From Mucilaginibacter conchicola (GTDB taxonomy: Bacteria > Bacteroidota > Bacteroidia > Sphingobacteriales > Sphingobacteriaceae): 64,000 bases of DNA. Location: assembly GCF_003432115.1 (NCBI RefSeq), contig NZ_QWDC01000004.1, positions 765-64,764 on the forward strand. The letters are read 5' to 3'. Below are positions 57,850 through 63,373 of this stretch, piece by piece. The notes beneath the pieces were generated by a model. That model did not search any database, had not been told where the DNA came from, and saw nothing but the letters and a program-made list of their open reading frames with translations. Position numbers and translations under genes: made by a program. Position 1 is the stretch's first letter. The number at the start of each line of letters is the position of its first letter.

Positions 57850-58701
57850 CTAGCTTATTTTGAGTAGTCTGATAAAGTATGGGCATTCGATCAGTTCCAG
57901 TTCAACCACACTTTTCCAATAATTCCGTCCAAAGTCCAACCGGTTGGCTTCTGCGGTTTCCCGTATTTCTTCTTTTATCACAGCATATGGGAGATTTTTC
58001 AGCCGCGAGCAGATCGTATTTCGAAGTTCAGAAATCAGGGGGATCGATTTTTCCCTCATCCGCTTAAGCAACTTCAATGATTTGAAATGTGATTCAATAA
58101 GTGAAAATACATCGTCGTCTATTCTGCCGGAATTTTCCAGATAAAATTCAAATTCCAGTTCTGAATATTCGTCCAGTTTCACTTCGACGAAAAGGTATTG
58201 ATCGTCAGGCAACTGGTCAGTATACAGGTTGAGCGTCGTCCTTTTTTCGTTATTTCTCCATACAAACGATTTATGTTGGTTACATTTTGAACAGCTGGGG
58301 AACAGGTTCAATGGATTTACAGCATATTCAGGAAACTCATCTTTAGGTACATAATGATCCATCGATTCATTGCTTGTTAAAGTACAATACTGGCAGGTGG
58401 TCCTTAGTTGCTGCGGTTGCAGGCGCTCTATTTCATTTCTCAGGCGGGAGATCGCGCTGGAATTATAATTATACAATGATATAAGATCTCTCTTGTGTAA
58501 GATGAATGTTGGTCCCGGTACTAAAGACGCCAGGCCATTATCCCGGAAATGTGTCGCATAAATGTCAAAGGCCGCCTTGATCACACCGGATACCGGGGAT
58601 AAGCGGAGTCGTAAGTCATCGGAATCTTTTGCAGATAGAACGGAATCGTAAAATTCGAAATCGTTAGCGTTATAGGGTTTAAGATTCTTCATCGCGATCA
58701 C
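57850..58701 (-). CDS. HNH endonuclease, Septu PtuB-like
   Basis: This 283-residue protein has an HNH/treble-clef zinc motif: Cys103/Cys106 (CQYC), Asp115-His116 in 'MDHYVPK', Asn in 'NPLNLFPSC', and Cys137/Cys140 (CSKCNQHK). This fits the PtuB partner of Septu defence systems and related HNH nucleases. The gene overlaps the ATPase gene by 23 bases (MKNL at 58692 is an alternative start), a sign of translational coupling. Expected to cut nucleic acid when triggered by the ATPase. Confidence 0.82.
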   Translation of the reverse strand: MIAMKNLKPYNANDFEFYDSVLSAKDSDDLRLRLSPVSGVIKAAFDIYATHFRDNGLASLVPGPTFILHKRDLISLYNYNSSAISRLRNEIERLQPQQLRTTCQYCTLTSNESMDHYVPKDEFPEYAVNPLNLFPSCSKCNQHKSFVWRNNEKRTTLNLYTDQLPDDQYLFVEVKLDEYSELEFEFYLENSGRIDDDVFSLIESHFKSLKLLKRMREKSIPLISELRNTICSRLKNLPYAVIKEEIRETAEANRLDFGRNYWKSVVELELIECPYFIRLLKIS

Positions 58702-60592
58702 TGATCATGGCTTTTATCGTCAGCCGTGTGTTTAGGTTAGGTGTCAGGTTTTTTGACGTCAATAGTTCCAGGACCTCGTCGTAGTTAAGGTTTTGATTCA
58801 CCAATTGGTTGATCTGTGTGAGGTGATGCTTATCTATGTTCCGGTTCCCAAAAATGTCCTCAGTGATCACGGTCAGGTTTTCCCCGAAAGATTCACGTGC
58901 CATCTGCCTGACATAGGCCATATTCTGATCGCGCTCCAGGATGATCACATTCCGGGCTTGTATCTCCTGGATGACAAGCGGAGAATGGGTTGCAATGATG
59001 CAGTAAGATTCAAACTTCTCAACCAACTCAAAGATCGTATTCATCAAAAGCGTGATCGCATTGGGATGCAAATGCGTTTCCGGCTCGTCATACAAGATCA
59101 GGGAATTTAACCGTATCTGGGAAAGGATCTCGGATATGATCAATACCAGTATGTTCTGTCCGGAACTTAACTTTTGATAGAATTCCTCAAAGTTCTGCGG
59201 TTGAAAAAGGGTTAATGTCCTTTGTCCTGTAAAGATCTCGGCAAGCAGGTCGTTAGGTATAAAATTTGCCAGGATTTTACGCCATTCCTGTACTAGCTTT
59301 TTATAAGTAATTTTATCTGCAAGGGTCAGGATCCGTTCCATGATCTCGTGCTCGGATAGAAAACCGCCCCCCTGTTTTTTCAGGCCGCAATAAACATAAT
59401 TGAAAGCGGCATCTCCCGCAGGTATCTCAAAATGGTCGAATATGCTGTAGGACACCGTGAAAATTTTACCGTATAACGGTCTCCCGGGAAACAGCTTTTC
59501 CGTGTCGGTTTTAGATAACTCGTTAGCAAGCGTGCTCAATATCTGTGTTTTGCCCGTTCCGTTCTTTCCGATCATGGCGAAAACGCGATGGTCAACAGGA
59601 CCTCCCGTCTCAAAATCAAATTCAAGTGCTATCGGTTCTTCCGCATACGGCAATTGATGCTGGAATCTGAATTTATACCATTCTCCGATATCGTTTCCGT
59701 TCAATTTGAACCGGATCTCTCTCAGTAGCTGCTCAGGCTCGTTGAATCTTATTAAAGATTCCTTGAATATTCCATCTTCCTCAAACGCTTCATGGATCTT
59801 TGGAAATAGCGCCGCATCCCGCAACGCAAGCAGAATGCTCCGGTATTTCTCCGGGAATAGACGGCTGATGTTCGCGTAATATTCATTTGCTTGTCCAAGG
59901 GAGCAGAACTCATCCGATAACGTTAGAAAATGATCCGACAGCACATCCGCTGTTTTTTTAGCCCCGCGCTTCATGAGCTTAAGTTCACCGATCTTTACCG
60001 AATTGAAATTATTTTCCCGGTAGCTTAGTTCGTAGGAGGTTTTATTGTGATAATCATCCCAGTTATCGTAAGTCAGATAGAAATGCGGGAAAGTTTTTTC
60101 CTTTTTGGAATCCGTATGAAAAAATGGAATTTCATTGGGCGGAACGTCTGATGGACGATCGTTTATCTCTGATTTACTTTGCAGGTTATAAACCGGCAGG
60201 CCGTTCTCGAAGTTGATCAGTGCAAATTTTGACGTTGAAACGGAAAGTATCGAGTTGATCATTGAAACGTACAGCGCGATCTGGCCTTTTTCTCCCCTCA
60301 CAGCTGGACTTACGATAGTCTCGATGAATTTTTTGAATTTTTCGTCGTCGTCAAGGATACTTAACCTTTTGACAAAAAGATATTCATATGACCAGTCATC
60401 ATTGCTGATAAGATGTTTTATGGCGTCTTCTTCCGCGTTGTCGTACCGGTCATCAAATGATGGCATTTCCTGCAAAGGCCAGATCAGATTAAGAAATCCA
60501 ATGATGTCATCACTGAATTTACCGAGGAACTGATCTTGACCCAAAACAGCATCGAGAATTATAGGTTTTAAGGATTCAGGAAGCGTTATCAT
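58679..60592 (-). CDS. AAA/ABC-type ATPase, Septu PtuA-like with large N-terminal extension
   Basis: This 637-residue protein has Walker A GKNGTGKT at 342-349, Walker B ending in Asp502-Glu503 ('LILYDEPETHLHP'), and 'IIATHSPLV', so the ATPase part is about residues 315-600 and resembles OLD/AAA15-type ATPases of Septu. In the PtuA proteins I know the P-loop is near the N-terminus; here about 340 residues precede it, with no recognised domain. The HNH gene downstream overlaps it. A phage-defence role is inferred from the pair. Confidence 0.82.
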   Translation of the reverse strand: MITLPESLKPIILDAVLGQDQFLGKFSDDIIGFLNLIWPLQEMPSFDDRYDNAEEDAIKHLISNDDWSYEYLFVKRLSILDDDEKFKKFIETIVSPAVRGEKGQIALYVSMINSILSVSTSKFALINFENGLPVYNLQSKSEINDRPSDVPPNEIPFFHTDSKKEKTFPHFYLTYDNWDDYHNKTSYELSYRENNFNSVKIGELKLMKRGAKKTADVLSDHFLTLSDEFCSLGQANEYYANISRLFPEKYRSILLALRDAALFPKIHEAFEEDGIFKESLIRFNEPEQLLREIRFKLNGNDIGEWYKFRFQHQLPYAEEPIALEFDFETGGPVDHRVFAMIGKNGTGKTQILSTLANELSKTDTEKLFPGRPLYGKIFTVSYSIFDHFEIPAGDAAFNYVYCGLKKQGGGFLSEHEIMERILTLADKITYKKLVQEWRKILANFIPNDLLAEIFTGQRTLTLFQPQNFEEFYQKLSSGQNILVLIISEILSQIRLNSLILYDEPETHLHPNAITLLMNTIFELVEKFESYCIIATHSPLVIQEIQARNVIILERDQNMAYVRQMARESFGENLTVITEDIFGNRNIDKHHLTQINQLVNQNLNYDEVLELLTSKNLTPNLNTRLTIKAMISDRDEES

Positions 60593-60775
60593 ATTTTAGA
60601 TTGTGTTCCTCATAACAAATGCAAGTTCATAGGTTTGGAGGACGTTGTATGTAACGCTGTAATTACTGATCATGTGGTTGGTCATAAGGTGCGGTGTTTC
60701 GCTATGCCAAATATAAAGAATATCTGAAAGGGTAGAATAGGAGGATGGCCAACGTCCGAAATGTTTCCGGTGTGA

Positions 60776-62995: not shown

Positions 62996-63373
62996 TTAAC
63001 CCAACGCTTCTTCAATACTACTCGCTATTTCAAAATCATCATATTCCTCCAGATAAATTCTCGTCGTTTCTTCGGTCCCGTGTCCCATGGCTTCCTGAAT
63101 TATAGCGATATCAACTTTCTTATGTTTATGGTTTGTCGCAAATGAATGACGGGCTACATAGCCAGTGATATGGCGGCTGATATCCTGAGCGTCTTTGATG
63201 ATACTTACGTCTTCGTTAAGATCTTTCAAGGCACTGTCAATTCTTGCGTCAAATTTTGCGGCAGAATTATGCTCTTTCTTCAAATATGAGAATAAATAGC
63301 CTGCATCACTCTGTAATGGGTAGGATCTGAACATATCTGCGATAGCGTGCGCTTTAGAGCATCTTAAAGTCAT
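62996..63373 (-). pseudogene. truncated tyrosine recombinase (catalytic fragment)
   Basis: This 125-residue ORF keeps the C-terminal part of an integrase: the second catalytic Arg in 'GYVARHSFAT' (Arg75, His76), His98 in 'AMGHGTEE' and the nucleophile Tyr107 in 'IYLEEY'. The SAM-like N-terminal domain and the first catalytic Arg are gone, so it cannot work as a normal integrase. It is probably a remnant of a mobile element that delivered neighbouring defence genes. Upstream in frame only a few codons remain before a stop. Confidence 0.8.

Follow-up and report, generated by a model that had tools for sequence, protein, structure and literature searches.

Two overlapping genes on the minus strand of the window (the whole stretch of 64,000 nucleotides analysed, from Mucilaginibacter conchicola) encode an ABC ATPase and, downstream of it, a predicted HNH nuclease. 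The features of the pair are as follows.

58679..60592, minus strand: PtuA-like ABC ATPase (PDC-M01A), intact ORF with ATG start, 637 aa
60119..60559, minus strand: AbiJ_NTD3 domain (PF18860), ATPase residues 12-158
59684..60103, minus strand: conserved WDDY domain (WDDY ... SLGQ ... YY), ATPase residues ~164-303, without Pfam match
58682..59683, minus strand: ABC ATPase domain and C-terminal helices, ATPase residues 304-637
57850..58692, minus strand: predicted PtuB-like HNH nuclease (PDC-M01B), 280 aa from the ATG at 58692, or 283 aa from the GTG at 58701
60708..60715, minus strand: possible -7 element TATATTTG, fitting TAnnTTTG (weak evidence)

Domains and motifs of the two proteins

The N-terminal half of the ATPase was unassigned in the initial annotation, but its residues 12-158 match the Pfam family AbiJ_NTD3 (E 1.6e-26; 93.2 bits, above the curated cut-off of 32.5), and the domain also exceeds the cut-off in a whole-genome search. 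Among 14 control genomes, a match to this family was present in Lactococcus lactis only. Within the domain, D47, R49, D56, H60, N64, D66 and W67 are 91-97% conserved across the window protein and 34 AbiJ_NTD3-class relatives. The following region (residues ~164-303), for which a Pfam scan of the ATPase gave no match, contains W178, D180, S231, Y239, D259 and R282, invariant in 49 of 49 aligned sequences (the window and 48 relatives). This WDDY domain, common to all 49, may merit a family entry of its own; by itself it is too weakly conserved for use as a search query. The ABC ATPase domain carries Walker A (342-349), the signature SSG (476-478), Walker B (502-503) and H536. In the same alignment Walker A residues G342, N344, G347, K348 and T349 and Walker B residues D502 and E503 are invariant, which bears out the Walker motifs first placed at 342 and 502 of a 637-residue ATPase, and S476-S477-G478 and H536 are invariant as well.

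The HNH protein carries the Pfam domain HNH (PF01844). Its HNH/zinc motif, initially described as complete, consists of C103, C106, H116, N132, C137 and C140 (283-aa numbering; positions in the HNH alignment, A3, run two lower) and is invariant across 49 aligned HNH proteins, again the window and 48 relatives. The intact ORF (57850..58701) gives 283 aa counted from GTG; at least 90% of the 49 proteins share the Met at codon 4, and in the AbiJ_NTD3 class the commonest overlap between the two genes is 14 bases (12 of 39), with 4 bases nearly as common (11 of 39). Because of the conserved Met and this commonest overlap, the ATG at 58692 is preferred and is probably the start, judging from these comparisons (280 aa, overlapping the ATPase gene by 14 bases). 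Upstream of the ATPase gene, TATATTTG is the sole match within the 183-base gap to TAnnTTTG, a Bacteroidota promoter consensus.

The overlapping ATPase and HNH reading frames reported initially (58679..60592 and 57850..58701, both on the minus strand) are intact, and comparison with the nearest homologue (L002) gives pN far below pS in every part of the pair, N-terminal domain included. The values reported beside the N-terminal domain are pN 0.308 and pS 0.745; no pN/pS ratio is given, since synonymous sites are saturated. Intact frames together with this constraint rule out a pseudogene.

Likeness to PDC-M01, Septu and AbiJ systems

Both proteins match profiles of the PADLOC candidate system PDC-M01 over almost their whole length, front end included: ATPase residues 27-628 align with positions 31-637 of 639 in PDLC04240 (E 1.4e-153), and the HNH protein with positions 1-273 of 281 in PDLC04266 (E 1.5e-60). 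By these E-values the pair is far beyond chance. With PDC-M01A matched over nearly its full length, an adjacent and overlapping PDC-M01B gene, and no essential difference found, the locus is an ordinary further member of the catalogued PDC-M01. The undescribed subtype suggested initially is therefore set aside: the whole architecture falls within PDC-M01, and AbiJ-NTD3 joined to ABC ATPases was described in 2013, in the accessible text of PMC3710099. PDC-M01 is named in PMC11758030 and PMC11811056, in the accessible text of each, as a software call without experiment; the latter counts it as an unpublished candidate and records Septu calls that overlap with it. The literature search, which took in neither preprints nor most subscription journals, turned up no experimental test of a PDC-M01 member. 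The present analysis adds the division into domains, shows that front ends are exchanged while the core stays constant, and draws attention to the unnamed WDDY domain.

Both structure models are confident (ATPase, pLDDT 89.9 and pTM 0.83; HNH protein, pLDDT 95.6 and pTM 0.90). For the ATPase model, Foldseek rows 1-42 all come from Septu or retron I-A (PtuA) structures, at TM-scores by query length of 0.20-0.33 and rmsd of about 8-16, low over the whole multi-domain model. In VIA-align, ranks 1-18 are Septu or retron I-A PtuA chains, headed by 9o4a_A (Z 17.1; 282 positions within model residues 288-637 aligned at rmsd 4.8), and the first non-PtuA row is UvrA (Z 14.5). Solved PtuA structures align with about residues 288-637 only (one row from 278), residue 2 of E. 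coli Septu PtuA 8ee4 pairing with model residue 306. The predicted fold thus comes closest to that of PtuA, a likeness limited to residues 288-637; given the low whole-model TM-scores and the Z of 14.5 for UvrA against 17.1 for PtuA, the fold by itself is not PtuA-specific. A viral fold library placed ABC-type ATPases first, with MutS-like proteins and helicases after them. The HNH model gave no Foldseek match at E 0.001 or better. In VIA-align its nine highest rows are all PtuB (Z 11.1 to 9.3, 188-204 aligned, rmsd 4.6-5.8; the highest with Z 11.1, rmsd 5.8 and 196 aligned), and the tenth drops to Z 5.3. The modelled HNH protein is accordingly placed nearest to PtuB on the VIA-align match, the Foldseek search being without significance.

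The PADLOC PtuA1 profile aligns with ATPase residues 164-636, and the phage family phrog_8066 covers residues 166-636 only; both represent the core without AbiJ_NTD3. The N-terminal half, initially set apart from PtuA, is thus divided: residues 1-163 stay unaligned, and solved PtuA structures reach only about 288-637, but the profile carries the relationship back to residue 164. Retron sequence profiles are in weak agreement with the structures: that of PtuA matches the ATPase at E 2.4e-14, and that of PtuB matches the HNH protein at E 0.0016, ranked after two other HNH proteins.

The likeness to PtuA and PtuB proposed at the outset is upheld by fold, gene order and motifs: like Septu and retron I-A, the pair comprises an ABC ATPase with Walker A, signature, Walker B and H-loop and, downstream, a PtuB-type HNH nuclease, and these systems supply the best matches to the models. 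Relative to Septu and retron PtuA, the ATPase domain is preceded by ~300 residues comprising AbiJ_NTD3 and the WDDY domain, so that the P-loop lies at 342, whereas in studied PtuA proteins it lies near the N-terminus (the P-loop lysine of Septu EcB88 PtuA is K43; PMC13096335, accessible text). The HNH protein, at 280 aa, is longer than the PtuB chains of the nine top rows (205-258), and scores against the NCBIfam PtuA and PtuB equivalog models (retron Ec78) fall short of the cut-offs (41.1 against 500 and 17.4 against 150 bits). The ATPase has its N-terminal domain in common with AbiJ proteins and further AbiJ_NTD3 fusions, but in place of Abi_C or a caspase it carries a PtuA-like ATPase part and is paired with an HNH protein. 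WonAB of V. cholerae, in the accessible text of PMC12137116, likewise pairs an ABC ATPase with a nuclease that aborts infection, but WonB is a PD-(D/E)xK nuclease, whereas the partner here is HNH.

Front ends on a constant core

The relatives comprise 135 loci, of which 12 are from related genomes (L001, the window itself, among them), 80 are the best among 522 genome-contig matches, and 43 are from viral contigs, some of them weak. Since the set was assembled in this way, the class sizes below are not population frequencies. The cores of L012, L097, L103 and L126 are identical to that of another locus. An HNH-like ORF lies immediately downstream of the ATPase gene in 125 of the 135 loci (HMM E 0.01 or better), or in 116 of 126 once the nine loci used to build the HMM are excluded, and the HNH/zinc motif pattern is present in 116 of the 125 partners. 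In six of the ten other loci the available sequence ends at or just past the ATPase gene, L082 has a broken frame and an HNH gene farther on, and L132, L133 and L135 are weak, doubtful relatives. A chance HNH neighbour is ruled out by the 125 loci. Relatives of the pair span several phyla, by record titles, and ATPase relatives with any front end occur in at least 10 of 199 related genomes, counting the window's own (up to six candidates scored per genome). A phylum-wide search found them in at least 3 of 395 genomes, again counting the window's own, but with only 4 candidates scored per genome it measures frequency poorly.

The core was defined from a seed alignment that includes the WDDY domain; matches to it begin at position 15 or before in 120 of the 135 loci, while in the remaining 15 the genes are partial or the matches more divergent. 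An AbiJ_NTD3-type front end, the architecture of the window ATPase, is present at 40 loci. A different region of ~228 aa precedes the core in 8, and a third type is present in 1 (L004, whose HNH-like partner is short and weak, at 23 bits, with the motif absent). In the remaining 86, the start lies no more than 33 residues from the core in 63 and farther off, with unmatched sequence, in 13; the last 10 are partial or match the core in part only. The second front end occupies the first ~228 ATPase residues in L006, L007, L060, L062, L072, L074, L077 and L084; a Pfam scan of it in L006 and L007 gave no match, and it may resemble ScoMcrA.

A core tree of 107 rows was obtained by quick search, with SH-aLRT support only, after removal of 28 of the 135 loci (partial core, weak score or duplicate). 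Its rows comprise 39 with AbiJ_NTD3, 8 with the 228-aa region, 1 of the third type and 59 labelled as having none, a label that takes in a few unmatched N-terminal extensions, such as those of L092 (174 aa) and L050 (102 aa), taken for misplaced starts. The AbiJ_NTD3 side of the tree (SH-aLRT 100) has 40 rows, namely the 39 and L064, which lacks the domain and shows no AbiJ remnant in 900 bases upstream, read by eye. Its members are mostly Bacteroidota, with two Acinetobacter and one Burkholderiales bin. The 228-aa group is likewise separated from all other rows by a single branch (support 100). The four front-end labels need 4 changes across the tree, the minimum possible being 3; front ends have therefore been exchanged, but rarely, and frequent shuffling is ruled out. 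On the AbiJ_NTD3 side, mean identity to the window is 33.6% for the N-terminal domain against 45.2% for the ATPase domain, a greater variation that fits a sensor under changing pressure, short of proof.

Within the genus, the domain is also found on other effectors. Six AbiJ_NTD3 copies, spread over five genomes, were found in a set of 149 related genomes: four belong to ATPase/HNH pairs (the window, one in G063 and two in G058), one lies ahead of Abi_C and one ahead of a caspase domain. In single comparisons the window domain matches the Abi_C protein at E 3e-14 and the caspase protein at E 8e-13. A role of the N-terminal region in binding a trigger, raised in the initial annotation, is plausible from these comparisons, and gains support because relatives exchange front ends and because AbiJ_NTD3 precedes other effectors in the genus.

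We infer that AbiJ_NTD3 acts as a trigger or a brake. It is not essential to core function, as 59 of the 107 tree rows keep the core without a recognised front end, and pairs of that kind are presumably triggerable without it. The front end could, on this evidence, be an antitoxin-like brake or a part for oligomerisation or scaffolding instead of a phage sensor, with triggering elsewhere, for instance by nucleotide level or by DNA ends at the ATPase, and the accessible text of PMC3710099 also suggests an inhibitory role for these domains. We consider this rather unlikely; a scaffold specific to PtuAB would not explain why AbiJ_NTD3 precedes unrelated effectors in the genus.

Genomic surroundings and proposed mode of action

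Within about 15.5 kb of the pair lie AbiH, YhcG/PDC-S02, a HEPN protein, a DUF4365-TPR protein and a tyrosine integrase, located as follows.

62996-63373, minus strand: short ORF (125 aa) resembling just the C-terminal part of a tyrosine integrase, probably a remnant
63439-65397 (L136:4204-6162), extending beyond the window: DUF4365 domain followed by TPR repeats (Pfam), a plausible defence gene
67752-73357 (L136:8517-14122), beyond the window: HEPN_Cthe2314, AbiH, YhcG/PDC-S02 and a longer tyrosine integrase (arm and SAM-like domains)

The G+C content per kb is 0.46-0.52 at 52-58 kb and 0.39-0.44 at 58-64 kb, and is also low (0.42) at 51-52 kb. None of six congeners carries the pair next to its orthologous MFS gene, within the stretches compared; since the other flank genes there differ as well, this demonstrates variability of the site and not a clean empty site. 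The Pfam neighbour scan covered 14 genes at 54.8-73.4 kb (seven in the window and eight in L136, the DUF4365 gene being in both). None of them matched a reverse transcriptase, the genes at 65664 and 68603 matching nothing; retron I-A has a reverse transcriptase beside ptuAB, and a retron effector is ruled out on this ground.

Around 30 of the 35 AbiJ_NTD3-class genome-contig loci (L015, L031, L039, L040 and L082 were left out as short or broken), 118 neighbouring ORFs of 100-1500 aa were picked mechanically. PADLOC (E 1e-15 or better) found Argonaute, type I restriction-modification (RM), GajB, DRT and MADS proteins among them, with 2-3 members each and no control set. Pfam found integrases and resolvases, and ordinary genes too (rhamnosidases and ETF, 2 members each), again with no control set. 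The type I RM subunits among these neighbours, the position of L005 between HsdM-like and HsdS-like genes (recognised by eye), and the best NCBIfam name for the ATPase, a 'restriction system-associated' ATPase (62.3 bits, far under the cut-off of 300), could indicate that the pair is an accessory to RM or another multi-gene system and not an independent defence pair. This appears improbable: none of the 14 scanned neighbours has a Pfam match to an RM gene, and the repeated neighbour families of relatives vary, the ATPase/HNH pair being what stays constant.

We regard the pair as a likely two-gene anti-phage operon, probably acting by abortive infection, of the catalogued candidate type PDC-M01. 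This reading is favoured because the PDC-M01A and PDC-M01B matches coincide with AbiJ_NTD3 and with structural matches to PtuA and PtuB; because the HNH gene downstream is constant and front ends are exchanged on a constant core; because AbiJ_NTD3 is found on Abi_C and caspase proteins, defence genes lie nearby and the six congeners lack the pair beside the MFS gene; and because the relatives' neighbours include defence-gene matches, albeit uncontrolled. It is very improbable that the pair belongs to a mobile element or to housekeeping DNA metabolism, with no defence role. ABC-HNH proteins can function in DNA repair, and relatives occur on the 43 viral contigs, some weakly; against this stand the patchy presence in related genomes, the nearby defence genes, the PtuAB folds and AbiJ_NTD3.

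Characterised PtuAB systems also favour an anti-phage operon. In the accessible text of PMC13096335, Septu EcB88 loses immunity with Walker or HNH mutants and cuts tRNA-Tyr within the variable loop; in that of PMC11555353, PtuAB of retron-Eco7 depletes tRNA-Tyr, while PtuAB of retron-Eco4 shows no tRNA loss, so the nucleic-acid target is not predictable from the family. In the proposed operon, ATPase dimers or higher oligomers would restrain the HNH nuclease, the front end (AbiJ_NTD3 and the WDDY domain) would sense a phage component, or some change that infection brings about, and its signal would pass through the ATPase; the freed nuclease would then cut nucleic acid (host tRNA or DNA), halting phage production. 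Core and nuclease would form a constant machine, the front end being its exchangeable trigger part.

A bolder version, advanced tentatively, is that AbiJ_NTD3 is a trigger module traded among unrelated suicide effectors (Abi_C/HEPN, caspase and PtuAB-like ATPase/HNH), that the pair is part of an AbiJ_NTD3-PtuAB subtype, old and coherent, in which the module responds to the same kind of phage signal as in AbiJ, and that the WDDY domain is a constant relay from exchangeable sensors to the ATPase. If the front end is the sensor, swaps among relatives and effectors would make AbiJ-type and PtuAB-type triggers directly testable.

Two further observations concern AbiJ_NTD3 proteins of congeners. The protein in which the domain is joined to a caspase (Peptidase_C14) domain (L167:1468-2673) is of a type absent from the fusions in the accessible text of the 2013 paper (PMC3710099). 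The gene for the AbiJ_NTD3-Abi_C protein (L166:1069-3480) is immediately preceded, on the same strand, by a UvrD-like helicase gene.
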